Source: an uncultured Sphingomonas sp. (GTDB lineage Bacteria > Pseudomonadota > Alphaproteobacteria > Sphingomonadales > Sphingomonadaceae). From it: 44,453 bases of DNA. How positions within the stretch are numbered: the stretch's first letter is position 1; each line of letters opens with the position of its first letter. Positions 28,231 through 42,999 of this stretch are shown here, piece by piece. A program made the position numbers and the translations under genes. The DNA lies in assembly GCF_913776855.1 (NCBI RefSeq), contig NZ_CAJYQD010000029.1, forward strand, positions 1 to 44,453, read 5' to 3'. The notes beneath the pieces are model-generated. The model was not told the DNA's origin, searched no databases, and worked only from the letters and a program-made list of their open reading frames with translations.

Positions 28231-28325
28231 GGGGAATGTGTCCGGGCAGCAGAAATCCGCTCCGCGAACCGTGGTGTTCGCGAACCGGCGGTGGTCAGGT
28301 GGTCGGGAAGCGTCGGTGGCCGACG

Positions 28326-28790: not shown

Positions 28791-28870
28791 GCAGCACTTG
28801 TCGGGAAATGCCGTGCCGATCGCGACAGACGATCGGCACCACCGGTGCGTACGGAACTGCGCTGGGTGGT

Positions 28871-28909
28871 CCGTGCCCGGCCGGTAAGAAAAGAAACAGC
28901 CGGGCACGG
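28871..28909 (-). terminator. hairpin between Cro-like and CII-like genes
   Basis: CCGTGCCCGGC (28871-28881) pairs perfectly with 28899-28909 over 11 bp, with a 17-base loop. It sits in the 166-base gap after the Cro-like gene. There is no long T run, so it may be a weak or factor-dependent terminator, comparable in position to lambda tR1. Confidence 0.6.
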
Positions 28910-28956
28910 TTTCCGCCCGCAATAACGGCGGCGGGAAGAAGGAAGGGCATAGAGCA

Positions 28957-29223
28957 TCATGCGGGCGAACCGACAACGCCGTCTGCGGGAAAAATTGAGG
29001 GCTGATCCGCATACAGGTCAGGCCGGAGCCGCCGCCTCGGGATACCTGTTGCCTCAGCGAAGATTGCGACATGTTCGGCCGGGCAAGCCTTTTTGGCTTT
29101 CAGCCAGCGCCAAATGGTTGGCTGCGTCACGCCGAGAAGCCGAGCGGTTGCGGAGCCGCTACCGATGATCTGGACACCTTCCGCGAAGACCATGCCCGGG
29201 TCGTCATGTTCAGTCGTCCCCAT
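28957..29223 (-). CDS. Cro/YdaS-like DNA-binding protein
   Basis: The protein has 88 residues from the ATG at 29223. The helix-turn-helix is SATARLLGVTQPTIWRWLKAKKACPAEHV followed by AEATGIPRRRLRPDLYA, matching the YdaS/Cro-like family in which the conserved P-x-E-H segment and R-x-x-L-R-P-D-x-Y ending are typical. It is transcribed divergently from the CI-like repressor across shared operator-like sites, so it likely controls the switch between lysogenic and early expression. Confidence 0.85.
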   Translation of the reverse strand: MGTTEHDDPGMVFAEGVQIIGSGSATARLLGVTQPTIWRWLKAKKACPAEHVAIFAEATGIPRRRLRPDLYADQPSIFPADGVVGSPA

Positions 29224-29240
29224 CTGCCCGACTCATCCCT

Positions 29241-29303
29241 ATACGCATCCGTATGAGACGGACTATACGCATACTCAGGGTTCCGCGCAATACGTATCCG
29301 TAT
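29241..29303. promoter_or_regulatory. three evenly spaced operator-like sites
   Basis: O1 at 29241-29254 (ATACGCATCCGTAT) and O3 at 29290-29303 (ATACGTATCCGTAT) are inverted repeats of ATACG/CGTAT. O2 at 29265-29278 keeps the left half (ATACGCAT) but has a degenerate right half. The centres are 24 and 25 bases apart. They lie between the divergent Cro-like and CI-like genes, the arrangement of a lambda-type right operator. Confidence 0.75.
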
Positions 29304-29316
29304 AGCTACGGCATAC

Positions 29317-29679
29317 ATGCGCCCAGCTCGCATCATTCCGGAACGGTTAGTAGAGCGGATCCGTACGTCGGGGCTGTCCTACACTGCGATTGCTCGCCAA
29401 CTGGGTGTTCAGCAGCCGACGATCACGCGCCTCGCAAAGGGCGAACAGCGCAGTACGGCCCGAATCGACCAGCTTGCGCGAATTGTCGGAACGACACCTG
29501 CTTATCTGACCGGTGAAGTCGACGACCCGACCTTGAACGCACCAGACGAGCCGGAGCTGTCACAGCTCGAAACAGCGTTGATCGAAGCATTTCGCGAGCT
29601 AGATGATAAAGCCCGCGCGGCACTTCTTTATGTCGCCCAAACGATGACCCCCGGCGCTACCCGCTCAACCACCACCTAA
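29317..29679 (+). CDS. XRE-family (CI-like) repressor without a peptidase domain
   Basis: The protein has 120 residues. An N-terminal helix-turn-helix (LVERIRTSGLSYTAIARQLGVQQPTITRLAKGEQ) is followed by a dimerisation-type helical tail (ETALIEAFRELDDKARAALLYVAQTM). It is too short to hold the S24 self-cleaving domain of lambda CI, so induction by RecA cleavage is not expected. There is no clear ribosome-binding site and the ATG is 13 bases after O3, so its message may be nearly leaderless. Confidence 0.85.
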   Translation: MRPARIIPERLVERIRTSGLSYTAIARQLGVQQPTITRLAKGEQRSTARIDQLARIVGTTPAYLTGEVDDPTLNAPDEPELSQLETALIEAFRELDDKARAALLYVAQTMTPGATRSTTT

Positions 29680-29914
29680 ACGCCGACGCAGGCAGGGCCT
29701 TCGTGGGACGCAGCTCCGCGTTGCGGGTATCGAGCGGGTATTGTTTACTGCGGGATCAACGAGATTGACGCACTTTCGCCGGTCTAAGGGCTAGCGTCGG
29801 ACGGGACGTCCGCCGCTGCAGCGTCCGTTAGGGGGCAATCCGTACCGAGCAGCTCGAGTTAACGGATCGTCACGCCTGCGCCGATATGCCGTCCGCTTCA
29901 TCGAGACGGACATC

Positions 29915-30328
29915 ATGATCGAACAGCTTGACCAACATTACGCGGTACTACGTCAGAAAGTGAGTGCCATGCGCGCGCTGTGTCGATCGTCCGTGCCCGA
30001 CATCGGCCAGATCAGCCATGCACGTCACGAGTTGATGGCGGTAAGCATGAAAAGGTCCAGGTATCTGCAGCAAGAGGTGTACCCGCTTTTGCGGCAGGCG
30101 AACGTGCCAGGGATTCCGGGCGTGATCGCCGATCTGGATCGCGACCTCGCTGAGCGCAGAGCCTGGGTAAATCGTCACGTTGCAACGTGGACGCTCGATA
30201 GAATCAGGGAGGACTGGGCCGGGTACCGCGAGGCTTCAGCACACGTTGCGAGAGGGATTGAGGACCGAATTCGTCTCGAGCAGGTCGCGCTGCGTCCAGC
30301 TCTCATTTCTACCTACGCCAAGATTTGA
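29915..30328 (+). CDS. helical protein of unknown function, paired with STAS-like protein
   Basis: The protein has 137 residues from the ATG at 29915, preceded by GAGACGGA. It is predicted all-helical, with MIEQLDQHYAVLRQKV and SRYLQQEVYPLLRQA segments that superficially recall four-helix hemerythrin-like or DUF proteins, although metal-ligand histidines are too few. The 235 bases upstream contain a possible TTGACG box at 29765 and small inverted repeats, but no gene. The next gene starts 14 bases after its stop. No function can be assigned. Confidence 0.6.
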   Translation: MIEQLDQHYAVLRQKVSAMRALCRSSVPDIGQISHARHELMAVSMKRSRYLQQEVYPLLRQANVPGIPGVIADLDRDLAERRAWVNRHVATWTLDRIREDWAGYREASAHVARGIEDRIRLEQVALRPALISTYAKI

Positions 30329-30342
30329 GGGTAACGCGTCAC

Positions 30343-30732
30343 ATGCATACCGGGCCGGCAAAATACGAAATCGCCTATGATCTTCCGAGCCGTACACTCA
30401 AGATCACAACCTATGGGTTCTGGTCCGGGGGCTTGGCGGCAAAGTTTGCCGCGGAACTGATCGCCAAGGGGACTGCGATACGCCTTCGCCACGGCACGTT
30501 CTACACGCTCGTCGATATGCGGAATGCACCGATACAGCCGGCTTCTGTTATCGAATCGCTCGCCGGTATGATGCCAAAAGCGCTGATGGTGACGAAGTCC
30601 CCGATCGCAGCGGTGGCAGCGTCCAGTCTGGGGAAACTACAGACCGAGCGTTACCTGACCGCACCGAATTGCCGGACGTTCCTGGAGTATGACGAGGCCG
30701 ATCGCTGGATGCGGTCTACCCCGCTCTCGTAG
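30343..30732 (+). CDS. STAS/SpoIIAA-like protein
   Basis: The protein has 129 residues from the ATG at 30343. A TTG at 30325 overlapping the previous stop is an alternative start. The order of strands and helices (YEIAYDLPSRTLKITTYGFWSGGLAAKFAAELI, FYTLVDMRNAPIQP) matches small STAS-type proteins of sphingomonads, in which a conserved aspartate follows a hydrophobic strand (LVDMR). Such domains bind nucleotides or partner proteins. Its role in the element is unknown, and its partner is the preceding helical protein. Confidence 0.55.
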   Translation: MHTGPAKYEIAYDLPSRTLKITTYGFWSGGLAAKFAAELIAKGTAIRLRHGTFYTLVDMRNAPIQPASVIESLAGMMPKALMVTKSPIAAVAASSLGKLQTERYLTAPNCRTFLEYDEADRWMRSTPLS

Positions 30733-30830
30733 TTGCCGGTGGAATGGGGCGGGGCGTCTTCGGATCAGCCTGTCCGATTTGTGGGGGGCGAGCGGAGGGC
30801 TGCGCGGGTCTAGGTTGATCGGCGGTTGCG

Positions 30831-30847
30831 GCGGAGGGGGCGTCCGG
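30831..30847 (+). repeat. degenerate copy of the dispersed hairpin repeat
   Basis: GCGGAG, loop GGGGC, then GTCCGG resembles the GGCGGAG...CTCCGCC units found further right but has mismatches in the right arm. It lies between the STAS-like gene and the convergent lipoprotein gene. Confidence 0.35.
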
Positions 30848-30857
30848 CGCTGCTAAT

Positions 30858-31286
30858 CTATGGCTGTTGCGACGGGATTGACCCGTCGACGACGTCGCCG
30901 CATTGCTCGATAATTACCGTTCTGCTGTTCGTGTTGAAAACACCCGCGACCAAGCGATATTTACCCGCTGGTACATTGTACGTATCGCGCGGCTGGCTAA
31001 TTCGCCGATCTGACATTCCGCCGGTGCCGATAAGGACGAAGAGAACCTTCGTTTTATCCACGTCTTTCGGCCGGAAATCATACCGGTAGTCGCGACGCCA
31101 GCGGGCGAGCGTTCCGACGCAAAAAAGTCGGCTGATCCGACGCTCAACTTCATCTACAAGCCAAACGCTCGGTTTTGGCTCCTGAGCTGATCGTTCTTCA
31201 CGATCGTCCGCGCTGACTCTCGGAACGGGGGCATAAGCGCCATTGCACCCTGCTAGGAAGATGCACGCAAGGGTAACGGACTTCAT
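30858..31286 (-). CDS. putative lipoprotein, function unknown
   Basis: The protein has 142 residues from the ATG at 31286. A lipoprotein signal peptide with lipobox LAGC is evident (MKSVTLACIFLAGCNG). The mature part has KVLFVLIGTGG, PAGKYRLVAGVF and a CGDVVDG segment near the C terminus, suggesting a small beta-rich domain. No family is recognised. It is one of two lipoproteins in the cargo zone, each flanked by the hairpin repeat. Confidence 0.7.
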   Translation of the reverse strand: MKSVTLACIFLAGCNGAYAPVPRVSADDREERSAQEPKPSVWLVDEVERRISRLFCVGTLARWRRDYRYDFRPKDVDKTKVLFVLIGTGGMSDRRISQPRDTYNVPAGKYRLVAGVFNTNSRTVIIEQCGDVVDGSIPSQQP

Positions 31287-31340
31287 ACGACGAGCGTAAC
31301 CCACCGGCGCTATCCTTGCTATCGGCACGATTGCGTTCGT

Positions 31341-31423
31341 GGGTACCTGCTACCTGCAAGCTTGCACCGATCAACTCGTCATGCGCGAGATTTGCGCGGT
31401 TACGGCGGAGGGTGTCTCCGCCG
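31341..31423 (+). repeat. dispersed hairpin repeat, copy A
   Basis: The GGGTACC box is at 31341-31347. The hairpin CGGCGGAG/CTCCGCCG is at 31403-31410 and 31416-31423, with loop GGTGT. TTTGCG stands seven bases before the hairpin, as in copy C. It separates the lipoprotein gene from the gene ending at 31432. Confidence 0.75.
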
Positions 31424-31431
31424 CCACATGT

Positions 31432-32418
31432 CTAGAATGGGTATGGGACGGCCGTCTCTCGCGAAAAGCCCTGACCCATGGAGAAATAACACTCGGAGAG
31501 GCTCCATCGCGGAGCATACCAAATTCTCATCTTGTTTTGTAGATCTGGCAGTTCTCGTAACGCTCGATAACCGTACTGTGCTGCAATCATGACCCAACAA
31601 GCGGCAATGGAGTTTAAGGCAGTGCCCAAAGTTGCTCTTTCGAACGTGCCTGCCCGATCGTGCTTCAACGCATTGTAATCGTCGTACCAAGGTAGAGATG
31701 GTTTCGGATTCAATCCGTCCCATCCTGCGAATGGAACTAATGGATCAATACCTCGATAGTGCTGTAATATAACTGTAAACTCGTTTAGCTTCATAGGCTT
31801 GCTTAGTTTATAGTAATCTTTCCTAGTAGGTTTACTATTTTTGTATCCATTTAGTTTCAAAACAGCTAGCCATTGCGCTTCACATTCAGTGCAAGCTAGA
31901 ATTATTAGATTTATAATACTGTTACCAAAGCTAAAAATGTTGGCTTTAGATGGATGTATAACGTCAAAAATAGATTCTAGTTCTTGGTATAGAGAACGAA
32001 GCTGTAATAAGGATGAAATTAATTCTTGCGATCGCATGTGATAGTCAGGTGCGGAGAATGCGGCCCCACCGTGCATATCGGCTTCTGGTCGAGCAATCCC
32101 CCGGTAAAAGGCGCGAGGGGAGAGTTCCATTCGCTGAACTGTCACGGATGCATTGGAAATCCCGAGGGCTGATACAAGCGTACGCACAAGTTCGGAGCCC
32201 TGCGGTACCAAGACGCGCCGTTGCGGATGGTGGGGATGTTGAGAGCCGAGGTCGATACGAAGCGCAACCTGCCCGTCAAATTGCCATATACCGTACGGTT
32301 TGCCTCGTGTTTCATCCGCTAGTGCGAAAGTATCGCCCGGTTTAATACTATCGTTCTGGAAAGCTGCGTTGCTTCCCCGCACCCAGGGGCGGTCAGTATC
32401 CACGACGATGGTCATCAT
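31432..32418 (-). CDS. AT-rich cargo gene, unknown function with KHDR motif
   Basis: The protein has 328 residues from the ATG at 32418; an in-frame extension upstream is less likely. The middle part (about 31700-32040) is strikingly AT-rich compared with its surroundings, so the gene was probably acquired from elsewhere. The C-terminal half includes PWYDDYNALKHDRAGTFERA followed by a hydrophobic helix (NSIAACWVMIAAQYG). The YN-x-x-KHDR pattern recurs in uncharacterised helical proteins that I associate with HEPN-like folds; this is a weak inference. The N-terminal half (DTDRPWVRGSNAAFQND) is unfamiliar. Hairpin repeats flank it on both sides. Confidence 0.7.
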   Translation of the reverse strand: MMTIVVDTDRPWVRGSNAAFQNDSIKPGDTFALADETRGKPYGIWQFDGQVALRIDLGSQHPHHPQRRVLVPQGSELVRTLVSALGISNASVTVQRMELSPRAFYRGIARPEADMHGGAAFSAPDYHMRSQELISSLLQLRSLYQELESIFDVIHPSKANIFSFGNSIINLIILACTECEAQWLAVLKLNGYKNSKPTRKDYYKLSKPMKLNEFTVILQHYRGIDPLVPFAGWDGLNPKPSLPWYDDYNALKHDRAGTFERATLGTALNSIAACWVMIAAQYGYRALRELPDLQNKMRIWYAPRWSLSECYFSMGQGFSRETAVPYPF

Positions 32419-32505
32419 TTCAGAACTGCCGAATCTCGGTCGTTCGTCAAGAGGCGGCCGCCGAAGGTTGCTGCGGTCGTTTGGTGTATACGGCGGGTAT
32501 CGTTC

Positions 32506-32584
32506 GGGTACCGGGTCCGCACGACCGTACGAAAGCAACGCAGAAACGTCACTTCGGGGCAGTTATTGCGGAGGGGTTCTCCGC
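32506..32584 (+). repeat. dispersed hairpin repeat, copy B
   Basis: GGGTACC is at 32506-32512. The hairpin GCGGAG/CTCCGC is at 32568-32573 and 32579-32584 with loop GGGTT. It lies between the divergent AT-rich gene and arsR. The spacing from box to hairpin is the same as in copies A and E (about 62 bases). Confidence 0.72.
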
Positions 32585-32607
32585 CGCGACTTTCATAGCC
32601 AAGCCCG

Positions 32608-32631
32608 ATATATCTGATATGCTGGATATAT
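32608..32631. promoter_or_regulatory. likely ArsR operator overlapping the arsR start codon
   Basis: ATATATC (32608-32614) and GATATAT (32625-32631) form a perfect inverted repeat with a 10-base spacer. AT-rich dyads upstream of arsR are the usual ArsR binding sites. The last two bases of the dyad are the first two of the arsR ATG (32630-32632), so a bound repressor would sit on the start codon. Confidence 0.7.
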
Positions 32632-32962
32632 GGATAATGATTCGGCCATTGTCGCCTTGGGCGCGCTTGCACAGAGCACCCGCCTGGACGTGTTCCGCCT
32701 CCTGGTGCGACACGAACCGGACGGTATGGCAGCGGGCGAGATCGCCCGTCAGCTCGACGTGCCGCAGAACACCATGTCGGCGCACCTCGGAATCCTCGCG
32801 CGCGCTGGCATCGTCCGATCCGAGCGGCACAGCCGGTCCATCATCTACCGCGCCGACCTCGACCGCCTGCGGGCGCTGACGCTGTTCCTGGTCAAGGACT
32901 GCTGCGCCGGCTCGCCCGAGCTGTGTGCGCCGCTCCTCGCCGAACTCACCCCCTGCTGCTGA
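32630..32962 (+). CDS. arsR: ArsR-family arsenic-responsive repressor
   Basis: The protein has 110 residues. A winged-helix domain is evident: [45 protein letters not shown] with the recognition helix, and [12 protein letters not shown] for the wing. As(III) sensing cysteines are probably those in [13 protein letters not shown] and the C-terminal PCC; they lie after the DNA-binding domain as in the type with C-terminal sites, not in the alpha3 position of E. coli ArsR. The start codon lies inside the operator and no ribosome-binding site is visible, so the mRNA may be leaderless. Confidence 0.93.
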
Positions 32963-32973
32963 AAGGACGCGCC

Positions 32974-33402
32974 ATGGCCGTCGACGTCGTGATCTACCAC
33001 AACCCCGCCTGCGGCACGTCGCGCAACACGCTGGCGATGATCCGCAACGCCGGCATCGAGCCGCACGTCGTGGAGTATCTGAAGACCCCGCCGTCCCGGG
33101 CGCTGCTGGTCGAGCTGATCGACCGCGCCGGCATCACGCCCCGGGATATGCTGCGCGAGAAGGGCACGCCCTACGCCGAGCTAGGCCTCGGCGACGTCTC
33201 GCTGACCGACGACGCGCTGCTCGACGCCATGATGGCGCACCCGGTCCTGATCAACCGGCCGCTGGTCGTCTCGCCGCTCGGCGTGAGGCTCTGCCGCCCG
33301 TCCGAGGCCGTCCTCGATCTGCTGCCCGAGCCGCAGCGGGGCGCGTTCGCCAAGGAGGATGGCGAACAGGTGGTGGACGCCTCCGGGCGCCGCGTCGCCT
33401 GA
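32974..33402 (+). CDS. arsC: glutaredoxin-dependent arsenate reductase
   Basis: The protein has 142 residues from the ATG at 32974, which follows GAAAGGACG. It reduces arsenate to arsenite using glutathione and glutaredoxin. The catalytic cysteine is in [17 protein letters not shown], and the arginines that bind the oxyanion are expected in [14 protein letters not shown] and [17 protein letters not shown]. It lies between arsR and arsB, with a one-base overlap (TGATG) to arsB. Confidence 0.95.
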
Positions 33403-34688
33403 TGCTCCTCGCCCTCGCCATCTTCGTCGTCACGATCGCGCTGGTCATCTGGCAGCCCCGAGGCCTTGGCATCGGGTGGAGCGCCATGGGCGGCGCGGCC
33501 GTGGCGCTGCTCGTCGGAGTGGTCTCGCTCTCCGACGTGCCGGTGGTGTGGGGCATCGTCTGGAATGCGACCGCGACGTTCGTCGCGATCATCATCGTCA
33601 GCCTGCTGCTGGACGAGGCCGGCTTCTTTGAATGGGCGGCGCTGCACGTCGCCCGATGGGGCGGCGGGCACGGTCGACGACTGTTCGTCCTGATCGTCCT
33701 TCTCGGCGCAGCCGTGTCGGCGCTGTTCGCCAACGACGGCGCGGCGCTGATCCTGACCCCGATCGTCATCGCGATGCTGCGGGCGCTGGGCTACCGCGAC
33801 AAGGCGACGCTGGCGTTCGTGATGGCGGCGGGCTTCGTGGCCGACACGGCCAGCCTGCCGCTGATCGTGTCCAACCTGGTCAACATCGTGTCGGCCGACT
33901 TCTTCCGCATCGGCTTCGCCGACTACGCCTCGGTGATGGTGCCGGTGGATCTCGCTTCTATCGCCGCGACGCTGGTCGCGCTCCTACTGTTCTTCCGCCG
34001 AGACGTGCCGACCGGCTTCGACGTCGCGCAGCTCGGCACCCCGGCCGACGCGATCCGTGATTCCGCCACGTTCAAGGCGGGCTGGGTGGTCCTCGCCGCT
34101 CTCCTGGCCGGCTTCTTTCTGCTCGAACCCATCGGCGTTCCAGTCAGCGCCGTTGCCGCTGCCGGCGCAGTTCTGCTGCTCGCCATCGCCGGGCGCGGTC
34201 ACGTCATCGAGACTCCCAAAGTCCTGCGTGGCGCACCGTGGCAGGTCGTGATCTTCTCGCTCGGGATGTATCTGGTCGTCTACGGCCTGCGGAACGCTGG
34301 CCTGACCGACCATCTCGCCGGTTTCCTCGACCGCACCGCCCAGAGCGGCGTCTGGGGCGCAGCGTTCGGCACCGGTATCATCGCTGCGCTGCTGTCGTCG
34401 GTGATGAACAACATGCCGACGGTTCTGGTCGGCGCCCTGTCGATCGACGCGACCCACGCCACGGGCACCGTCAAAGAAGTAATGGTCTACGCCAACGTGA
34501 TCGGCTGCGACCTCGGCCCCAAGATCACGCCGATCGGGTCACTCGCCACCCTCCTGTGGCTGCACGTTCTTGAGCAGAAGGGCATTCGGATCAGCTGGGG
34601 CTACTACTTCCGCGTCGGCGCGACGCTGACCGTCCCCGTGCTGCTGGTCACGCTCGCTGCACTGGCGATCCGGATCAACGCCGGATGA
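33402..34688 (+). CDS. arsB: ArsB arsenite efflux permease
   Basis: The protein has 428 residues with about 11-12 membrane helices, for example [60 protein letters not shown] and [15 protein letters not shown]. The motif [14 protein letters not shown] and the later [15 protein letters not shown] with [19 protein letters not shown] are characteristic of ArsB. It exports arsenite and antimonite using the proton gradient. Its start overlaps the arsC stop, and it ends 40 bases before arsH. Confidence 0.95.
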
Positions 34689-34728
34689 GCTGCGGAAACC
34701 CTTTGAACCCCACCGGAAACTTCTTCTG

Positions 34729-35481
34729 ATGCCCCTCCGCACCCTCACTGACACCGACCACCTGCCGGCGCTCGACCGCCGCTACGCGCTCGACCGGCCT
34801 GCCGTGGGGATGGGCGAGGGCGATCCGCCCCCGCGGATCCTGCTGCTCTACGGATCCCTGCGGGAACGGTCCTACTCCCGGTTGTGCGTCGAGGAGGCGG
34901 CTCGCCTGCTGCGCTTCTTCGGCGCGGAGACACGCATCTTCGACCCGTCGACCCTGCCGCTGCCCGACCAAGTCGCCGGTGACGACCATCCGGCCGTCCA
35001 AGAGCTGCGCGAGCTGTCGATGTGGTCGGAGGGGCAGGTGTGGTGCAGCCCGGAGCGGCACGGCCAGATCACCGGTATCATGAAGCTGCAGATCGACCAC
35101 CTGCCGCTGTCGATGGGCGGGATGCGGCCGACGCAAGGCCGTACCCTTGCCGTCATGCAGGTGTCAGCCGGGTCGCAGTCGTTCAACAGCGTGAACACCT
35201 TGCGTGTCCTCGGCCGATGGATGCGGATGGTCACGATCCCGAACCAGTCCAGCGTCGCCAAGGCGTTCGAGGAGTTCGACGACGCTGGCCGCATGAAGCC
35301 GTCCAGCTACTACGACCGTATCGTCGACGTGATGGAGGAGCTGGTCCGTTTCACCGTCCTGCTGCGCCCTCATACCGCCCAACTGGTCGACCGGTATTCG
35401 GAGCGGAAGGACGCCGGCGTGCCGATTGATGCGGCAACTGACCTGTCAAGCATCGCTATCGCTCCGCAGCGATCAACATGA
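34729..35481 (+). CDS. arsH: ArsH NADPH-dependent FMN reductase
   Basis: The protein has 250 residues with the flavodoxin-like fold: [25 protein letters not shown] binds FMN phosphate, then [35 protein letters not shown] and [23 protein letters not shown]. ArsH oxidises trivalent organoarsenicals and reduces quinones or metals. It completes an arsR-arsC-arsB-arsH set. No terminator was recognised after it; repeat copy C follows 47 bases later. Confidence 0.95.
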
Positions 35482-35527
35482 CCGCTGATTGCTGAGCTGT
35501 TAGCGCGGGTAGCTTTCAGCGCAATGC

Positions 35528-35587
35528 GGGTACCAACGGTCTTAGAACTGCCAGCTTTGCGTTGCTGAGGCGGAGGGTTTCTCCGCC
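35528..35587 (+). repeat. dispersed hairpin repeat, copy C
   Basis: GGGTACC is at 35528-35534. The hairpin GGCGGAG/CTCCGCC is at 35569-35575 and 35581-35587 with loop GGTTT. TTTGCG stands seven bases before the hairpin. The box-to-hairpin distance is 41 bases, as in copy D. It lies between arsH and the small membrane protein gene. Confidence 0.75.
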
Positions 35588-35638
35588 GTAGTGTTTCGGC
35601 TTACCCTCTCAGCGTGCCGATCATTCCGAGGTCCTGTC

Positions 35639-35815
35639 ATGCGGCTATTAGTCACGGGTGTCCTAACTGCCGTCTTCCTTATCGCTGGGGTCAAGGCTTT
35701 GGCCGCGGCTGGAATAGAGGTGCCGGCGGGGTGGCCAACCGCTCTAGTTGCTGGCGTATGCGGCGCCCTCAGCTATTGGTTCGCTCATACATTCCCTGCC
35801 CGTCGCCCAAGATAG
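35639..35815 (+). CDS. small membrane protein, function unknown
   Basis: The protein has 58 residues from the ATG at 35639, preceded by CGAGG at a good distance. Two hydrophobic stretches, LLVTGVLTAVFLIAGVKALAA and WPTALVAGVCGALSYWFAH, suggest two membrane passes with a basic C terminus (PARRPR). No family is recognised. It is bounded by repeat copy C and a degenerate hairpin at 35859. Confidence 0.6.
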   Translation: MRLLVTGVLTAVFLIAGVKALAAAGIEVPAGWPTALVAGVCGALSYWFAHTFPARRPR

Positions 35816-35858
35816 TCCGCAAAATGTGTTGCACGAAGCGTCCGGTTTTGCAGGGCGC

Positions 35859-35876
35859 GGCGGAGGCATCACCGCC
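35859..35876 (+). repeat. degenerate copy of the dispersed hairpin repeat
   Basis: GGCGG and CCGCC are inverted around AGGCATCA, keeping the GGCGGAGG start of the family. No GGGTACC box was found before it. It lies between the small membrane protein gene and the convergent lipoprotein gene. Confidence 0.4.
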
Positions 35877-35909
35877 TAACGAATGTCTGGAAGCGGTGGA
35901 AGCTGCCTT

Positions 35910-36449
35910 TCAGCCTGCACCGAGAACGATGTCAGCGATCGCTCCGCCAATCCCTTTAAGGCGCCCATCCCAAGTAATGGTCTTGCGGCCGAACGGCGTA
36001 ACGATGCTCATGACGTGCCGCGAAATACCAACACCCGTTGCTTCGGTTGTCAGCGCGCTCTCGCTGTACAAGCGGGCATCTGCGATCAACTGGTCAAGTC
36101 TTTGCGAATCTGACGCAGTCAACGACCTGCTCTTGTTCGATTCTAGTTTGCGCTCCACCGGCAGAAGGCCGCCTGGACCAATTTCAGATACTTGACTCCA
36201 CTGCCAATTTCCCGCCTCATCCTTCCAGGCAATGGTACTGGCTTCCGCATAGATATGGTGGACGGCCACGCTGTCCACAAAGATCGCGGTTGCTCCAATG
36301 TGCTTGGGCGCATCATAGCGGTCCCGCAACGCAAAACTGCGAGCGATCTCAGTTGAGATCGGAGGCGAAAAGTCCGTGTTTAGGGGGACATTTCCACCGG
36401 CGCAGGCAGTCAAAGCAATCGTGAGGGCGAGGGTGAGGGGCAGCTTCAT
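35910..36449 (-). CDS. putative lipoprotein, function unknown
   Basis: The protein has 179 residues from the ATG at 36449; the upstream in-frame extension has no signal peptide. A lipoprotein signal is visible (MKLPLTLALTIALTACAGG, lipobox LTAC). The mature protein has ATAIFVDSVAVHHIYAEA and a C-terminal VMSIVTPFGRKTITWDGRLKGIGGAIADIVLGAG segment. No family is recognised. It lies between a degenerate repeat and repeat copy D. Confidence 0.7.
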   Translation of the reverse strand: MKLPLTLALTIALTACAGGNVPLNTDFSPPISTEIARSFALRDRYDAPKHIGATAIFVDSVAVHHIYAEASTIAWKDEAGNWQWSQVSEIGPGGLLPVERKLESNKSRSLTASDSQRLDQLIADARLYSESALTTEATGVGISRHVMSIVTPFGRKTITWDGRLKGIGGAIADIVLGAG

Positions 36450-36523
36450 TCCCCTTTGTCGCACATCATCGCTTCGTCCGCTATTTAGGTGAAAGCTGCT
36501 GAGGGTATCAATCACGAGAACGC

Positions 36524-36583
36524 GGGTACCGTCAGGGCCAAACGCCCCGTATTTCCGCGCGCAAGGCGGAGGGGGTCTCCGCC
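36524..36583 (+). repeat. dispersed hairpin repeat, copy D
   Basis: GGGTACC is at 36524-36530. The hairpin GGCGGAG/CTCCGCC is at 36565-36571 and 36577-36583 with loop GGGGT. TTTCCG stands seven bases before it. It closes the cargo zone on the right, before the phage-derived block. Confidence 0.75.
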
Positions 36584-36662
36584 GTAAAAGTAGCCGCTAG
36601 GTAAAGCGCCGCGCGTATACGATATTGAAATTGTCACAAACTTGGATCATAACGGTATCGTA

Positions 36663-36833
36663 ATGGATGCCAAAGATTCAGCAGCCGCCTATCGCAATCA
36701 TGCCGCGCGCGAGCTTCGTTTGGCCAGTGCTTCGGTTATGCCAGAGCATCGTGAACTTCATATCCGTGCGGCGGAAAAGTGGGCTGAACTAGCGGCTCGC
36801 GCGGAGTCCATAAATTCTTCGAAGGGAGATTAA
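36663..36833 (+). CDS. small charged protein, function unknown
   Basis: The protein has 56 residues from the ATG at 36663; a TTG seven codons upstream is possible. The sequence is helical (AAAYRNHAARELRLASASV, HRELHIRAAEKWAELAARAE) and resembles short sphingomonad proteins of the pattern YR-x-x-A...RE-x-H-x-x-A-A-E-x-W. No function is known. It has no obvious operon partner. Confidence 0.55.
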   Translation: MDAKDSAAAYRNHAARELRLASASVMPEHRELHIRAAEKWAELAARAESINSSKGD

Positions 36834-36975
36834 TGGGAGGTTCCTATCTCGAGCTAATGTACCTTCTGTTAGATTTGGCGGGCGGCTAAAGGACACCATT
36901 GGTCAGAAACTTCTCGAAGTAGCGGCACCTGTTTCTATATCGTGGAAGGCGCTGACGCCGGGAGGAAAGCACACG

Positions 36976-37356
36976 GTGGGCGCGGTCAGCAGCAGAAAAG
37001 ATCAGGCGCTGGCGTACATCTCCGCTTATATCGTGCGGGAAGGGCGCAGCCCTTCGATGCGCGAGATCGCGATCTCGCTATCGGTCAGCGACACTCGCGC
37101 GAAGGCGCTGGTGAAAAAGCTCGCGGCCGAGAAGATGATCGATCGCGCACCTGGTGCGCAACGGGCGATCACTGTTCCGGGGCTGATGGATCGCCATCTG
37201 ATCGAGCGGATGCGCGGCATGGGCATGAAGATCGACAACGATTTCGTCTGTCCGCCCGACGTCCTGCCGTTACCACAAGGGAATCTGTCGCTGGTGGCGA
37301 TCCTCGATCATATCCCCGATCCTGAAGGGGATCACCATGGCCGGAATTCCGACTAG
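36976..37356 (+). CDS. LexA-type winged-helix DNA-binding protein
   Basis: The protein has 126 residues from a GTG preceded by GGAGG at a good distance. Residues 8-65 resemble the LexA DNA-binding domain (ALAYISAYIVREGRSPSMREIAISLSVSDTRAKALVKKL). There is no peptidase domain, so it is a stand-alone regulator. The gene overlaps the next by 20 bases. It begins the phage-derived block and is probably its early regulator. Confidence 0.65.
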   Translation: MGAVSSRKDQALAYISAYIVREGRSPSMREIAISLSVSDTRAKALVKKLAAEKMIDRAPGAQRAITVPGLMDRHLIERMRGMGMKIDNDFVCPPDVLPLPQGNLSLVAILDHIPDPEGDHHGRNSD

Positions 37357-37960
37357 CGCCGCAGCAGGCAGACCTGCGGCCAACACCGACGATTACGAGC
37401 GGCAGCGGTTCGCGCACCTAGTGCTGGGCGCGCCTCGGCCTAAGCCTGGACGCAATAAGGCGCGCAAGGGAAAGGCGCCGACGATCGTTCGCCTGGCGCC
37501 CGGCATCGAGGAGCAAGTCGCGCAACGCGAGCGCTGGTCGCACAAGGCGTTCGGCACACCGCAGACGCATGATTTCGCGGCGGCCGAGCGTCGACGGGAG
37601 GGATCGCTCGCCCGCCTCGTCGCAACGGGCGCGCTCGACGTTCACCAGCTGGCGGCCGCCCAGGAGATCGCGACGGCGCACGAAGCGATCACGGCTGACG
37701 TTGCGGTCCGCACCGCCAAGCTGGAGCCGCGCGGCAGTGGCGGCGGGCCGAATGCCGCGTCGGCCGAGCGCATCGGCGCCGTGCTTCGCGAGCAGGCGTA
37801 CACGCGGTGGCGCGCCGCGATCGGCGCCGACGGCGCCATGCTCCTCGCGATCATCGTCGACGACATGGGGCTGGTCGAAGCGGCCCGGCGCTGGCGGAAG
37901 TCGAACCGCCGGACGAAAGCCATTTTGATCCGCGCGCTGGACGGGTGGAAACGGGTCTGA
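37337..37960 (+). CDS. phage-type protein, function unknown
   Basis: The protein has 207 residues from the ATG at 37337, preceded by GAAGGGG. It is highly charged and helical. LARLVATGALDVHQLAAAQEIATAHEAI suggests a scaffold or DNA-binding role, and the C terminus GAMLLAIIVDDMGLVEAARRWRKSNRRTK looks like a helix-turn-helix. Similar proteins occur in alphaproteobacterial prophages. No function is assigned. Confidence 0.6.
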   Translation: MAGIPTSAAAGRPAANTDDYERQRFAHLVLGAPRPKPGRNKARKGKAPTIVRLAPGIEEQVAQRERWSHKAFGTPQTHDFAAAERRREGSLARLVATGALDVHQLAAAQEIATAHEAITADVAVRTAKLEPRGSGGGPNAASAERIGAVLREQAYTRWRAAIGADGAMLLAIIVDDMGLVEAARRWRKSNRRTKAILIRALDGWKRV

Positions 37961-38047
37961 CCCGTTACCTTTGGGGAACTTCCCACAAGGTCACCTGCGA
38001 AAACGGTCACGTAACTGGCAATTCCGACCCCGCGATAGCTGCGCCCG

Positions 38048-38086
38048 GCGCCCGCCGACCTCCCCCCTGGGATCGGCGGGCGCTTT
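38048..38086 (+). terminator. hairpin with short T run
   Basis: GCGCCCGCCGA (38048-38058) pairs perfectly with 38073-38083 over 11 bp, with a 14-base loop and TTT behind it. It follows the gene ending at 37960 and immediately precedes the ribosome-binding site GAGGAGG of the next gene. It could be a terminator for the first gene or a structure limiting expression of the second. Confidence 0.6.
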
Positions 38087-38105
38087 GGCATGAGGAGGCT
38101 GATGC

Positions 38106-38369
38106 ATGGTCCACGACCACTCCCGCCAGCGTCGCCCCGTCCAGGCGCGCTCGAACGTGCCCGATCAGCTCGAACGCCTCTCGGATCGGTTCGACGTGCT
38201 GACCCACCGGGCGCGCCTGGGCGAGATGACACCGAAGCTCTTCGAGGAGCTGGAGACCGACGCGCAGGCGATCGCCGCCGATCTGGTTGCTATTTTCCGG
38301 GGCCGACAGGCCCGTCCCACGAACCCGCCGCTGTACGTCAGCGCCGATGGCACGAAGGCAGCATGGTGA
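38106..38369 (+). CDS. small phage-type protein, function unknown
   Basis: The protein has 87 residues from the ATG at 38106, with GAGGAGG just upstream. A helical middle (VPDQLERLSDRFDVLTHRARLGEMTPKLFEELETDAQAIAADLVAI) recalls short coiled-coil helper proteins. No family is recognised. Its stop shares a base with the next ATG (TGATG). Confidence 0.55.
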   Translation: MVHDHSRQRRPVQARSNVPDQLERLSDRFDVLTHRARLGEMTPKLFEELETDAQAIAADLVAIFRGRQARPTNPPLYVSADGTKAAW

Positions 38370-38569
38370 TGTCGATCCCCCGTCAACAGATCGAGCAGGT
38401 GCTGGATGCCGGCCATCCCGAGACCGCGCTGATCGGCGTGCCGGTCAGCCTACTGCGCGAGCTGTTCCGCGCGGCCGTTTCGACCGACGTCAATGTCGTG
38501 TCGCGCGGCGTGGGCCGTGTCATCGGGACCAACGCGGTGCTGTCCGTCGGAGGCCGGCATGTCGGATAA
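38369..38569 (+). CDS. small phage-type protein, function unknown
   Basis: The protein has 66 residues from the ATG at 38369, chosen because it shares a base with the previous stop (TGATG) and GAAGG lies ten bases upstream. An in-frame ATG two codons earlier is possible. The sequence RQQIEQVLDAGHPETALIGVPVSLLRELFRAAV is helical. No family is recognised. It overlaps the DUF3164 gene by 11 bases. Confidence 0.55.
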   Translation: MSIPRQQIEQVLDAGHPETALIGVPVSLLRELFRAAVSTDVNVVSRGVGRVIGTNAVLSVGGRHVG

Positions 38570-39278
38570 GCCGCATCCCGGTGCCGTCGAGGTAGGCGGC
38601 GAGCTGTACCTGCAAGATTGCAAGGGCAACCTGGTGCCGATCACCGCCATCAAGGCCGGCGACCTGCTGATCGACGAGCTGGTGCGCGGTATCATCCAGC
38701 GCGCCAAGGCGATGTCGGATCAGCTCGCCGCCTTCCGGGTCGAATCGTTCGCCCAGATCGGCGCGCTGCAGGCCCTGCTCGATCAGCAATACGGCGTGAC
38801 CGTGGGCGGCAAGAAGGGCAACATGACGCTGACCACCTTCGACGGGTGCCAGCAGCTGAAGGTGCAGGTCAGCGACCAGTACGACTTCGGCCCCGAGCTG
38901 CTCGCGGCCAAGGCGCTGATCGACGAATGCCTGACCGAGTGGGCAGGCGGCAGTCCGCCTGAGCTGCGCGCCATCGTCAACCGCGCCTTCAGCGTGGAGA
39001 AGGAAGGCCAGATCAACCGTGCCGGGCTGCTGATGCTGCTGCGCGTGGATAGCAAAGACCCGCGTTGGGGTCGCGCGATGGATGCCATCCGCGACAGTAT
39101 GCGTACCGTGGGATCGCGCGAGTACCTGCTCTACCGCGTGACGATCCGCCGTCGCGCGCCGCTGACGATCGAGCAGCAGCTCGTCTGGGGCGCGGTGGTG
39201 ATGTCCATCAAGTCCTGCGCTCCCAACGACGCCGGCGACGCGCTGGTGATGACGTGCGAGAGCGGGGCACGGTCCTGA
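38559..39278 (+). CDS. DUF3164 family (Mu-like phage) protein
   Basis: The protein has 239 residues from the ATG at 38559. It matches DUF3164 proteins, known in Mu-like phages near the transposition and Gam genes. Features are DLLIDELVRGIIQRAKAMSDQLAAFRVESF, a GGKKGNMTLTTFDGCQQLKVQVSD strand region, ALIDECLTEW and FSVEKEGQINRAGLLMLLR. The function is unknown. Its presence suggests that this block derives from a Mu-like phage or shares genes with one. Its stop shares a base with the next start (TGATG). Confidence 0.8.
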   Translation: MSDKPHPGAVEVGGELYLQDCKGNLVPITAIKAGDLLIDELVRGIIQRAKAMSDQLAAFRVESFAQIGALQALLDQQYGVTVGGKKGNMTLTTFDGCQQLKVQVSDQYDFGPELLAAKALIDECLTEWAGGSPPELRAIVNRAFSVEKEGQINRAGLLMLLRVDSKDPRWGRAMDAIRDSMRTVGSREYLLYRVTIRRRAPLTIEQQLVWGAVVMSIKSCAPNDAGDALVMTCESGARS

Positions 39279-39844
39279 TGGCGCAGCGTCGGCGACCCAT
39301 CAAAGGCATTGCCCGGTTTCGCCGGCTGCTGCGACGGATGCCGGATACGGCGCGCGCCGAGCTGGTCACCGAGCTGGATACGACCGGTCGACGCATTCTG
39401 CAGGCGATCATCGCCCGTTCGCCACGTCTGTCGGGCAAACTGCGCGCGGGATTGTCGCACAAGGTACTGCGGACCTCGCTGAAGCTGCAGATCGGCTTGA
39501 TCGGCACGCCGGCCGGGCGCGCCAAGCTGTTCTATGGGCGCATTCAGGATCTCGGCCGCGAGGCGCAGGTAGTCGATGTCGCCGGGAAACGTCTGCACCG
39601 ACGCCATCTTCCGGACCGGCAGCGCGCCGGCCGACTGTCCCATTCCCTGAAAGGAGCCGCCCCATGGCGAAAGTCCATATCGTCGTCTCGCGCACGAATG
39701 CGCGGGCCGACACGGGCAGCACGCTGCCGATCCCTGACGCCGTGCCAGTCCAGACGGCGACTATCACCAGTGCGGCCGCGTCGGCGGTTGGCCGTCCCAG
39801 CTGGCGAGTATGCTGGCGACCGATGGTTTCTCCATCCGCGATAG
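39278..39844 (+). CDS. HK97 gp10-like tail completion protein, damaged C terminus
   Basis: The protein reads 188 residues from the ATG at 39278, but only the first 105 or so look genuine: RFRRLLRRMPDTARAELVTELDTTGRRILQAIIARSPRLSGKLRAGL, ending with LFYGRIQDLGREAQVVDV. HK97 gp10 relatives are about 120-150 residues and end with an RPF-type motif that is absent here. In another frame, a TGA at 39648 is followed by AAAGGAG and the next ATG, suggesting that a different gene once ended there. I infer a deletion or frameshift joining two genes. Confidence 0.5.
   Translation: MAQRRRPIKGIARFRRLLRRMPDTARAELVTELDTTGRRILQAIIARSPRLSGKLRAGLSHKVLRTSLKLQIGLIGTPAGRAKLFYGRIQDLGREAQVVDVAGKRLHRRHLPDRQRAGRLSHSLKGAAPWRKSISSSRARMRGPTRAARCRSLTPCQSRRRLSPVRPRRRLAVPAGEYAGDRWFLHPR
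39664..39809 (+). pseudogene. 5' fragment of a phage structural gene
   Basis: The ATG at 39664 follows AAAGGAG and opens a frame beginning MAKVHIVVSRTNARADTG, then LTIPxxVPVQT-like text (STLPIPDAVPVQTATITSA). After about 40 residues the reading turns to shadow sequence, while the adjacent frame carries a hydrolase. It looks like the start of a virion gene cut by a deletion. Its original product is not known. Confidence 0.45.
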
Positions 39845-40691
39845 CTGGTTCGGTACGGCGGGCATGGCAAATCCGACTGCGATCGCGGCCTATGATCCCC
39901 GGCGCAGCGGGTTCACGGGGTGGGGCGGCGGCGAGGTGTCGCTGGGCGGGCCTTGTGTGGCGACGATCGGCTCCGGGATCGGATATTTCCAGCCTTCACG
40001 TCCGATCGACCGGGCATCGATCTTTGTACGTGTCAGCACCGGTGGTGGTCAGCTTCGGATCGCCAAGGCGAGCGAATCCTTCACGATCGGCACGGTCGGC
40101 GCCGAAGGCTTCACCCGGTCGGAAATCGTCTTCACGACCAAATCCGCCGATCCCATCCAGTACAGCTATATCAGCGGTGGCTATGTGTCGGTCGCGGGTA
40201 CGGTGGCATGGGACAGCGCCCTGCCGGGGATCGAGGTCGCCAATTTCTCGATCTATGGCACGACCAGCATCGTGCAGGGCAGCACCGCCAAACCGGCGTC
40301 GCCGCTGAACGCCCTTGGGAGCTATCAGCCTCACCTGACCTTCGTGAAGCTTGGGACGCACGACATCAACACGGGTGTCTCGCTGGCGGTGTGGGAAGCG
40401 AACATCCGCGCGATCGTCACCAAGGCCAAGCTGACCGGTAGCGTGGTGCTGATCTGGCCGTCGATCGGCGGTGCGTCCGGCAACTACGGGACGGACGCGG
40501 TGCGCATGATGTGGCGCGTTCGCGCGCTGCAGATCGCGCTGAATTCGGGCGCCATCTTCTTCGATGAAGAAGCGATGCTTGGCGGCCGGGTCGGGGCCAA
40601 TGCTTCGGGCGCTCTGCCCGACAATGTCCACGCCGCCGAGTGGGCGCAGCTGCTCGAGGCCGTTGCCCATCATCGCCTTGTGCGCTGGTGA
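39810..40691 (+). CDS. SGNH/GDSL-type hydrolase lacking its first block
   Basis: The open frame of 293 residues from the ATG at 39810 extends in frame backwards to GGWPSQLA, which in relatives follows the GDSIT nucleophile block. That first block is not present upstream, so the catalytic serine has been lost. Later blocks remain: KLGTHDIN (block III, with His in place of Asn of GTND) and PDNVHAAEWAQLLEAVA (block V with Asp-x-x-His). Such enzymes occur as phage tail or surface carbohydrate esterases. The gene is probably a non-functional relic. Confidence 0.65.
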   Translation: MLATDGFSIRDSWFGTAGMANPTAIAAYDPRRSGFTGWGGGEVSLGGPCVATIGSGIGYFQPSRPIDRASIFVRVSTGGGQLRIAKASESFTIGTVGAEGFTRSEIVFTTKSADPIQYSYISGGYVSVAGTVAWDSALPGIEVANFSIYGTTSIVQGSTAKPASPLNALGSYQPHLTFVKLGTHDINTGVSLAVWEANIRAIVTKAKLTGSVVLIWPSIGGASGNYGTDAVRMMWRVRALQIALNSGAIFFDEEAMLGGRVGANASGALPDNVHAAEWAQLLEAVAHHRLVRW

Positions 40692-40745
40692 TCGCTGACG
40701 TTTGAGGCCCAGTTCGCTTGGGTGCCGAAATCACGGGTACAGCGT

Positions 40746-40827
40746 GGGTACGACTGCCCCAACGCAACCGTGAAAACCCACGCATTTCCAAGGTTCTTTT
40801 TGAACCACGGCGGAGGGATTGTCCGCC
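40746..40827 (+). repeat. dispersed hairpin repeat, copy E (diverged)
   Basis: GGGTACG is at 40746-40752, with another GGGTAC at 40735. The hairpin GGCGGA/TCCGCC is at 40809-40814 and 40822-40827, with one mismatch next to the loop. The spacing of about 62 bases matches copies A and B. It lies in the 319-base gap (40692-41010) after the hydrolase relic; I see no gene in that gap. Confidence 0.55.
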
Positions 40828-41010
40828 CGTTGCTCGAACCGCCAGCAGCGATCCGGGGAGCGGAGCTGCCGGCGAGCGGTCAGTTGCGGCGGACAACTGT
40901 GTAGCTGATACCCGACATCGACCGCACGACCGATCTCTACGTAACAGCCCGATACTTCAAGGAAAAATGCTTCGCGGTCGGACTCCCGGATGAGTTTCCA
41001 GCCTTCTGTC

Positions 41011-41265
41011 CTACCCGTCTACCGTTGCAACCATAGCCGGAGATTTTCCCGCAAATATCACTAATCGGTAGAGCGTCAGTCCCGCAGCGTTCTTGGCCTC
41101 GATATGCCAGTCCTCGTCCTTCCAGATCGACTCTGGAGCGTCTTTTAAGAGCTGTCCGGCGAACTCGCTGAGTTCCGTACGAAGGTGACCCACATCTGGC
41201 AGGTCGACCTCGATTTGTTCGACGGTGTCGCGTCGCTGACAAAGCCCGATGCGGTATTTTGGCAT
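41011..41265 (-). CDS. DUF6894 family small protein
   Basis: The protein has 84 residues from the ATG at 41265, preceded by GGAGAG. The pattern is typical of DUF6894: PKYRIGL at the start, VDLPDVGHLRTELSEFAGQLL, a W near the middle (DEDWHIEAKNAAGLTLYRLVIFA). The family is common in alphaproteobacteria such as sphingomonads and rhizobia and has no known function. It stands alone, divergent from the second integrase. Confidence 0.7.
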   Translation of the reverse strand: MPKYRIGLCQRRDTVEQIEVDLPDVGHLRTELSEFAGQLLKDAPESIWKDEDWHIEAKNAAGLTLYRLVIFAGKSPAMVATVDG

Positions 41266-41360
41266 TGCAGCTCTCCCAACCGATGCTTGCCGGTCCTCAA
41301 CCGACCGCGGCGCTACAACGATCCGAAGAAAAACAATGATTTAGTTGAACAGTCCTTCTA

Positions 41361-41406
41361 ATCCGCCGGCAGTGTGAGCAAGGGAGTGCGAGCGCTGCCG
41401 GCGGAT
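41361..41406. repeat. 12-bp perfect inverted repeat upstream of the second integrase
   Basis: ATCCGCCGGCAG (41361-41372) and CTGCCGGCGGAT (41395-41406) are perfect inverses separated by 22 bases. The dyad sits about 140 bases before the integrase start, in a 282-base gap without a gene. It may be a binding site for the integrase or a regulator, or a terminator without T run. Confidence 0.6.
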
Positions 41407-41547
41407 GACCCCCTGTAGGACAACCCGGTAAGTGCCTCCGGTCGTCATGGGTCACCGGCAATGTGCGCGGTATGCAGTAGCCACGCAAGCACATCGGTAC
41501 CGCCCCTCTCGAACGTGCGGTTTCGTGCTTTCAGATAGGAAATTAGA

Positions 41548-42777
41548 ATGCTGACTAACGCGCAGGTGCGAACCGCGCGGCCGAAGCCGCGCGCCTATAG
41601 GCTGCCCGACGGGCAGGGCCTCCACCTCTATGTCGCCCCGACCGGCCTCAAATCGTGGCGCGTGCGGTTCCGCCTCGCCGGCCGCGAGCAGCTGCTGACC
41701 GTCGGGCAATTTCCCGACGTCGACCTGTCGGCCGCGCGCGAGGCAGCAGCTGCCGCACGCGACGCGCTGCGCGCCGGGCGCGACCCGCGCGAAGAGCGCG
41801 CAGCGCGTGCCGAGGTAGATCGGACGTTCGAGGCGGTCGCCCGCGCCTGGCACGCGCACTGGCGGTCGAGCTGGACCGAGATCCACGCCGGCGACGTCAT
41901 CACCAGCCTGGAGCGCGATGTCTTCCCGGCGATCGGCACGATCGACGTCGACGACGTGGGCGTCGCAGACATTCGCGACGTCCTGCGCGCCGTCGAGGCG
42001 CGCGGCGCGATCGAGACATCGAAGCGGCTGCGCCAGCGGATTTCTAAGGTCTTCGGCTTTGCGATCGCGAACGAGTGGGCGTCCTTCGATCCGGCCGCGT
42101 CGGTGAAGCAGGCGCTCGCGGCCGCGCCGATCGCCGGCGAGCAGCTCGCCCTGGTCTCGATCGACGACGCGCGCGAGCTGCTGGCGGCGTCAACCGGCGT
42201 CCCGGCGCCGGCGATCGTCCAGCTGGCGTCGCGCTTCCTCGCGCTGACCGGCGTCCGCCTGGGCGCGCTGCGTGGGATGCAGTGGGACGAGCTGCACGAT
42301 GTCGACTGGTCCGGGGAGGTCGCCGGCCCGCCAGCGCCGGTGTGGGTCGTGCCGGCGGGACGCATGAAACTGGCAAAGGCGAAGAAGGGCGACCGGCGGT
42401 TCGATCACGTCGTGCCGCTATCGCGCCAGGCGGTGGAAATCCTGCGCGTCGTCCGCGCGCTGGCGATCGATCCGGTCCTGGTCTTCAGCCGCGGCAACGC
42501 CGCGCCGATCGCCGAGAGCGCCATCGGCGCGCTGTATCGGAAGTCCGGCTTCGCCGGCCGGCATGTACCGCACGGTTGGCGCGCCACCTTCTCGACGATC
42601 CTGAACGAGCGGTACCCGGGGGAGCGCGTCACGATCGACCGCGCCTTGGGCCACGCCGCGAAAAAGGGGGCTGAGGTCAATGTGAAGGTGGAGGGCGCCT
42701 ACAACCGATCGAAGCAGCTCGGCCCGCGCCGCCGCGTGATGCAGATCTGGGCCGATCTTCTCATGCCCCCCGCGTGA
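41548..42777 (+). CDS. P4-type tyrosine integrase with N-terminal arm-binding domain
   Basis: The protein has 409 residues. The N-terminal domain of the DUF4102 type is clear: PKPRAYRLPDGQGLHLYVAPTGLKSWRVRFRLAGREQLLTVGQFPDVDLSAAREAA. The core-binding domain follows, then the catalytic domain with Arg in ALTGVRLGALRGMQWDEL, HGWR in VPHGWRATFSTILNE, the His in DRALGHAAKK and Tyr in EGAYNRSKQL. All catalytic residues appear present. It lies 1.2 kb from attR, facing it. It may belong to a second element nested or fused into this island. Confidence 0.92.
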   Translation: MLTNAQVRTARPKPRAYRLPDGQGLHLYVAPTGLKSWRVRFRLAGREQLLTVGQFPDVDLSAAREAAAAARDALRAGRDPREERAARAEVDRTFEAVARAWHAHWRSSWTEIHAGDVITSLERDVFPAIGTIDVDDVGVADIRDVLRAVEARGAIETSKRLRQRISKVFGFAIANEWASFDPAASVKQALAAAPIAGEQLALVSIDDARELLAASTGVPAPAIVQLASRFLALTGVRLGALRGMQWDELHDVDWSGEVAGPPAPVWVVPAGRMKLAKAKKGDRRFDHVVPLSRQAVEILRVVRALAIDPVLVFSRGNAAPIAESAIGALYRKSGFAGRHVPHGWRATFSTILNERYPGERVTIDRALGHAAKKGAEVNVKVEGAYNRSKQLGPRRRVMQIWADLLMPPA

Positions 42778-42898
42778 CCTGTCCGCAGGCGGGGCGGAGC
42801 GGCTCTATTGGCACGGGTCGTGCTCGTCCCCGCCGCAGAGCCATCGGGGCGGCGTAGCCGCCTCGTCCCGACGTGTCAGCGAGACGCGCGGGTGCGTG

Positions 42899-42989
42899 TG
42901 TCGCAGCGTGGCGACAAGGGGACAAAGCCCAGGGCGGGACAGATGGGCGGGGTAGGGCGTCCTATTGATGCGTGTCGCGGTAGCGACAC
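42899..42989. repeat. two TGTCGC...GCGACA inverted repeats
   Basis: TGTCGC and GCGACA are paired at 42899-42916 (6-base spacer) and GTGTCGC/GCGACAC at 42972-42989 (4-base spacer GGTA). Both lie in the 222-base gap between the convergent integrase and winged-helix genes. The shared half-site suggests a common binding protein, although the second may simply be a terminator. Confidence 0.5.
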
Positions 42990-42999
42990 CTTATGATCT

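Follow-up and report, generated by a model that had tools for sequence, protein, structure and literature searches.

What a repeated, hairpin-bearing sequence is doing between otherwise unrelated genes of an integrated element is the question raised by a 44,453-nucleotide stretch of an uncultured Sphingomonas sp. (contig NZ_CAJYQD010000029.1, positions 1–44,453; hereafter the window). An earlier note, made from the letters of the window, had described five copies (A–E) of a unit in which a GGGTACC box is followed by a GGCGGAG-N5-CTCCGCC hairpin, and had regarded it as a cassette boundary, a recombination target or a regulatory RNA. The repeats are real and are members of a family seen in Sphingomonas phages. 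Our preferred explanation, to which we assign a probability of roughly 0.4, is that the element is a stoperator-like one-way boundary operator at module junctions and the predicted binding site of a phage LexA-like protein. The wider issue addressed is the uptake of defence and fitness genes by phages without damage to their own regulation.

Anatomy and distribution of the element

The sequence GGCGGAG-N5-CTCCGCC was matched 32 times in the window with up to three mismatches, against 10.7 matches expected (none of 100 shuffles reached 32), and the palindromes with no or one mismatch are exactly those of copies A–E. All five lie on the forward strand at the places originally reported. A sixth copy, which had been overlooked, was recovered by a relaxed scan, and copies B, C, D and E each possess a second phased box (Table 1). 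Two degenerate hairpins that had also been listed, at 30831 and 35859, are without phased boxes and were missed by the relaxed scan; they may be decayed copies or chance. The genome to which the window belongs (3.19 Mb in 49 contigs, 84.9% complete) was searched with the strict pattern GGGTAC-N35-65-GCGGAGGGNNNCTCCGC, giving four forward matches, which are copies A–D; the reverse strand and the backward control gave no match. Repetitive extragenic palindromic (REP) and bacterial interspersed mosaic element (BIME) repeats of the host-wide kind were ruled out because, within its own genome, the strict pattern is confined to this window. Palindromes with one mismatch elsewhere in 14 genomes were, among the matches listed, scattered over both strands.

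Each element consists of one or two GGGTAY boxes followed by the palindrome GGCGGAGGGNNYCTCCGCC, about 80–95 bases in all. A box is found within 85 bases upstream of 96 of the 102 perfect palindromes. Upstream of 152 palindromes with at most two mismatches, 232 box starts were counted, and 228 of these fall 59–61, 69–71, 79–83 or 90–94 bases before the end of the palindrome, that is, in helical phase. The most frequent arrangements of the boxes are 91/80 (type I), 82/60 (type II) and 81/70. The box-to-hairpin spacing of 41 or about 62 bases given in the earlier note is one case of this family-wide phasing, and the TTTGCG-like hexamer noticed in copies A, C and D belongs to a part of the 82/60 class that is moderately conserved. 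A geometry search for two phased boxes and any inverted repeat with a GG loop returned 146 sites, and none in the reversed sequence (1.44 Mb). The boxes at these sites are spaced by 11 bases in 105 cases, by 21–22 in 34 and by 10 or 12 in seven. The GG at the start of the loop was demanded by both the phasing and the geometry searches, so its conservation is partly by construction. Conservation has sharp limits, beginning at the first box on the left and ending a few bases past the palindrome on the right. A repeat of the GAAAGCGGAC type often stands directly left of the first box or about 15–35 bases right of the palindrome (for example at 600–660 in contig L052 and at 36491–36502 in the window).

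The strict pattern was found in 34 stretches of viral contigs and in three of 397 genomes of the family to which the host belongs. In the genome collection it matched 54 stretches, 43 of them titled Sphingomonas; the 11 matches outside Sphingomonas were excluded as background after their titles were known. The total lengths of the 83 distinct Sphingomonas and viral sites are restricted to 58–59 (24 sites), 69–70 (seven) and 78–81 bases (52), with 58–88 allowed by the search, and those of the 11 background matches are scattered from 59 to 84. A slightly wider pattern detected copies in 20 of 161 genomes of the genus of S. aurantiaca MA101b (G415), with none in the backward control. Phage families were detected in 59 of 89 contigs, the remaining 30 being stretches of 1.0–14.8 kb. 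In the genome and viral searches the unit was neither spread at random over intergenic sites nor restricted to the window in its spacing, the two outcomes that the earlier note had named as refuting its interpretation. Phage records searched with the typed element as query gave matches of 20–26 bases only, in five records, and a full-text literature search, with preprints and most subscription papers outside its coverage, found no published description of the element.

Location at mosaic cargo junctions

Placement was analysed in nine phages or elements, namely eight phage contigs of 36–43 kb and the window. Together these hold 37 copies, 27 to the left of a LexA-like gene and ten between this gene and an integrase gene; no copy lies past the integrase or on the opposite strand. 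A left-hand copy is present in all nine and a right-hand copy in all eight that have this integrase family, each of the ten right-hand copies lying no more than 2.4 kb from the integrase; the ninth (G399) is without a right-hand copy. Terminase and portal genes are present in one relative (G405). Among 39 contigs with at least two copies, a count that includes overlapping loci, 38 have a single orientation; L057 is the sole contig of this kind with a copy on the opposite strand. Copies on the LexA side are mostly of type I (12, versus four of type II) and those on the integrase side mostly of type II (12, versus five of type I; Fisher p = 0.015). A gene recognised by eye as a Dam-like methylase closes the structural block just left of the right-hand copy in five of the nine (among them 37621–38433 in G405, 33317–34159 in G400 and 35280–36119 in G409).

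The orientation of the element is independent of that of its neighbours. Flanking genes at 113 copies are arranged ++ (62), +− (26), −+ (17) and −− (8). Their strands were assigned with a simple codon model, in which cargo genes, those of the window included, go undetected. With one exception, all 162 copies fall outside predicted genes. Intervals of less than 8 kb between neighbouring copies (n = 54) have a median length of 1139 bases and a G+C content of 57%. Ten interval proteins were tested, nine from relatives and one from the window; four match known or candidate defence models (type IIG, AbiU and PDC-type) and a fifth has many ATPase-type defence matches. The interval proteins include a type IIG restriction–modification enzyme, an AIPR/AbiU-type protein and an AAA_15 ATPase. 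The element marks the joints by sequence, so that a scan for it can be used to locate cargo. One Crp-type cargo family occurs in three arrays, on the plus strand in two of L010, L023 and G409 and on the minus strand in the third.

Junctions bearing the element are mosaic. Where at least one flank is homologous, both flanks are common to 20 of 393 pairs of element junctions (5%), compared with 1411 of 4721 pairs of element-free gene junctions from the same contigs (30%), pairs more than 97% identical having been excluded. The proposal that the unit marks module boundaries is borne out in other Sphingomonas phages, in which it stands at the junctions of different cargo genes. Contigs L029 and L117 are 93–96% identical over long stretches on either side of two copies, and their cargo differs both between and beyond these copies; the second element persists as a 115-base island of 94.8% identity. 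Exchange of cargo on both sides with retention of the element argues for a function at the site and against cassettes that bring their own site with them. In L052 and L060, blocks of 1.0–1.9 kb that are 99.9–100% identical occur in the arrays of two strains in reversed order and with their orientation kept. Cassette shuffling was rejected for this pair: two joints come within about 16 bases of a palindrome, on its right, but coincide with another short repeat, the joints falling at a GGAAAGCGGA-type repeat and a short common stretch, and other joints are away from copies.

A candidate binding protein and competing explanations

A LexA-like winged-helix family is present in all nine phages or elements, and its profile matches LexA structures with an E value of 7.6e-10. 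Of 17 viral LexA-like loci for which 2 kb or more of left-hand sequence was available, 15 have copies on that side of the gene; over the viral loci, 35 copies lie to the left versus one to the right, with none in the reversed control. Of the 161 genomes, 20 have copies, 29 have the LexA-like gene and 11 have both (Fisher p = 6e-5). We also scanned 20 stretches surrounding LexA-like genes of the genus, 18 of them from genomes without a strict match and most cut to the left of the gene; relaxed copies occur in 13, all on the strand of the gene. For the type I copy adjacent to the LexA-like gene, the spacer varies in step with the protein (Mantel r = 0.70, p = 0.0002, n = 15), and for the methylase left of right-arm copies the corresponding value falls short of significance (r = 0.20, n = 9). 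The motif R-x-[KR] occurs in what we take to be the recognition-helix region in 33 of 39 LexA-like rows, and five of the six rows that depart from it come from stretches without a copy. The type I boxes repeat directly with a period of 11 bases, as does GTTC-N7-GTTC, the direct repeat bound by alphaproteobacterial LexA (PMC3323433).

In the boundary-operator explanation, the phage LexA-like protein would bind the GGGTAY boxes and, acting with an occupant of the palindrome, would halt or gate transcription that runs rightward between the cargo and the lytic genes. Cargo genes could then be expressed or silent without their transcripts feeding into the late block, and the boundary would shield the virus's own gene switches from acquired genes. 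Module swapping at the element would be accounted for by general recombination between copies. Several observations weigh against this explanation. Seven of the 20 stretches around LexA-like genes are without a copy (one of these is just 982 bases long), and no LexA-like match was found at E 1e-10 in nine of the 20 genomes that have the element. The integrase likewise tracks the integrase-side copies (r = 0.45, p = 0.0024, n = 15). When all copies per phage are used, the link to the LexA-like protein is only 0.23 for type I (n = 6) and 0.51 for type II (n = 7); for type II the integrase gives the higher value (0.69, n = 7), so that lineage may explain part of the association. A family of Cro/CI-type helix-turn-helix (HTH) regulators is also present in all nine, and the partner could therefore be another protein. 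Expression of the LexA-like gene in lysogeny is uncertain, given its position on the right of the left array.

The main and serious rival, improbable in our estimate, is a site dedicated to site-specific recombination, its build having some resemblance to an integron attI, with accessory direct repeats on one side and inverted core sites around a short overlap, at whose palindrome a phage recombinase would insert and excise cargo. The directly repeated arrays with about one cargo unit per interval, the mosaic junctions and the helical phasing of the would-be accessory boxes agree with such a site, and the palindrome is the most frequent breakpoint (ten of 26 one-sided pairs). The other breakpoints lie in the boxes (six), at the left edge (four), in the spacer (three) or further out (three), which leaves the recombination target suggested by the earlier note no more than a candidate. 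In the L029/L117 pair the left part of the second element is kept while the cargo on its left changes. Furthermore, no integrase family is common to all nine phages or elements (the main one is in eight), the att core of the window is a tRNA end distinct from the element, and direct repeats around the structural block would risk deletion of the block. A sequence conserved for recombination alone, serving as a homology linker at which the general recombination of the phages joins modules, is a weaker candidate and rather unlikely. It would account for breakpoints in both conserved blocks and for copies being more alike within a contig than between contigs (type I spacer distance 0.50 versus 0.61; none of 2000 permutations), but exact phasing despite diverged spacers and the strict orientation call for a reason at the level of a protein.

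Weaker still, and very unlikely, is a regulatory RNA hairpin in the late transcript, either a put/nut-like antiterminator or an unusual terminator. The orientation of the element follows the late genes, in agreement with this reading. The last base of the loop is T or C at 144 of 146 sites, which fits pairing on the sense strand with the first G of the loop (a G demanded by the searches), and the pair immediately outside the arms is Watson–Crick in 90 of 123 cases, a value reached in none of 5000 permutations. The compensatory stem changes that the earlier note had proposed to look for do exist in diverged phages (GGCGGAC...GTCCGCC and GTCGGAC...ATCCGAC, at pairs 7 and 2), but they are few, and with pair 7 broken at 18 of 146 sites the full stem is not strictly kept. 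Type I shows no strong covariation of pairing outside the palindrome; a second conserved hairpin between the boxes and the palindrome, likely by eye, was dropped for want of it. Known families in Rfam, antiterminators included, were ruled out, the sole match in the window at the gathering score being a tRNA. Ordinary intrinsic terminators were excluded, as originally argued, because T-rich tails are rare (nine of 123 hairpins); a terminator scan of the window copies flags C alone, with a scan total no higher than in shuffles. Phasing at 10.5 bases is not needed by an RNA and points to double-stranded DNA, for which reason regulatory RNA is not favoured.

The boundary operator can be extended to a more general role, about which we are doubtful: a docking port common to Sphingomonas temperate phages and their stripped-down relatives, oriented, read by the LexA-like protein and bracketing the late block, into which any gene might plug in either orientation with the lytic programme undisturbed. 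If true, this port would be the phage counterpart of an integron array, with insulation in place of a cassette recombinase. The element provides a testable pair of protein and site. It also opens to direct test the old idea that mosaic phages have boundary sequences, a term that occurs in PMC3029335.

The integrated element and comparison with known systems

All copies in the window lie inside an 18.96-kb integrated element (25096–44054) bounded by exact att repeats (Table 1). The copies were ruled out as the window's own attachment site, since the att core is the end of tRNA-Val. Two tyrosine integrases, unlike each other, are present, and neither terminase nor portal was found among the scanned open reading frames of the element. 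Few phage genes remain between the left and right copies of L117 and L118, both from S. aurantiaca MA101b. The 18.96-kb element, L117 and L118 may be satellites or decayed prophages. A Mu-like transposable phage, suggested by the DUF3164 gene, was ruled out because a relative has terminase phrog_9 and portal phrog_12. By eye, an integrase-like N-terminus apparently begins right of attR (44055–44453), hinting at a second element in tandem.

Table 1. Features of the integrated element and copies of the repeat in the window. Box positions are given in bases before the end of the palindrome.
Feature	Coordinates	Strand	Remarks
attL	25096–25144	+	Exact 49-base repeat; 3' end of tRNA-Val
Tyrosine integrase adjoining attL	25154–26488	−	
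Cro/CI-type HTH regulator	29317–29679	+	Family present in 9/9 phages or elements
Further copy	29725–29814	+	Boxes starting at 29725 and 29736; variant palindrome GTCGGACGGGACGTCCGCC at 29796–29814
Copy A	31341–31422	+	Single box, 82; palindrome 31404–31422
Copy B, type I	32495–32585	+	Boxes 91 and 80, second phased box at 32495; palindrome 32567–32585
B–C cargo: ArsR-type regulator, ArsC, ArsB, FMN (flavin mononucleotide)-reductase-family gene	32630–35481	+	
Copy C, type II	35507–35587	+	Boxes 81 and 60, second (outer) box GGGTAG at 35507; palindrome 35569–35587
Copy D, type II	36503–36583	+	Boxes 81 and 60, second phased box at 36503; palindrome 36565–36583
LexA-like winged-helix protein, predicted box binder	36976–37356	+	126 aa; Pfam LexA_DNA_bind 25.1 bits, cut-off 23.7
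Conserved phage gene after LexA-like gene	37337–37960	+	Family in 7/9 phages or elements
DUF3164 phage gene	38559–39278	+	
Copy E	40735–40827	+	Boxes 93 and 82, second phased box at 40735; palindrome 40809–40827, one mismatch
Tyrosine integrase	41548–42777	+	Family found right of last copy in 8/9 phages or elements
attR	44006–44054	+	Exact 49-base repeat

Stoperators are short asymmetric repressor sites. Those of cluster A mycobacteriophages are mostly in one orientation and block elongation (PMC6550527). Like the present element, they are numerous in each genome, mostly share one orientation relative to transcription, mostly lie off promoters and are tied to one phage DNA-binding protein (PMC6550527). 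The present element differs from them in comprising two phased boxes and a palindrome over about 80–95 bases and in standing at cargo junctions, and its binding and blocking are only predicted. With alphaproteobacterial LexA operators (PMC3323433) it shares an 11-base direct repeat and the proximity of a LexA-type DNA-binding domain. Its half-site is GGGTAY instead of GTTC, it has an additional palindrome, and the phage protein is without an evident protease domain.

Integron attI/attC arrays likewise have directly repeated sites around single-gene units, with accessory repeats on one side of attI. The attC consensus has a GTTRRRY core, which is absent from the class logos as read by eye. As an integron integrase, the left integrase of the window scores 19.5 bits against a cut-off of 265, and no match is listed for the right integrase. 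Unlike integron cassettes, the present cargo occurs in both orientations, and in L029/L117 the element is not carried with it. The lambda nut and HK022 put sites resemble the element as intergenic hairpins oriented with phage transcription; the element differs from them in its phased DNA boxes, in the lack of an Rfam match and in its many copies per phage. The boundary sequences of mosaic phages are conserved sequences at the joints of module exchange, whereas the element described here is one defined unit that recurs at several joints per genome.

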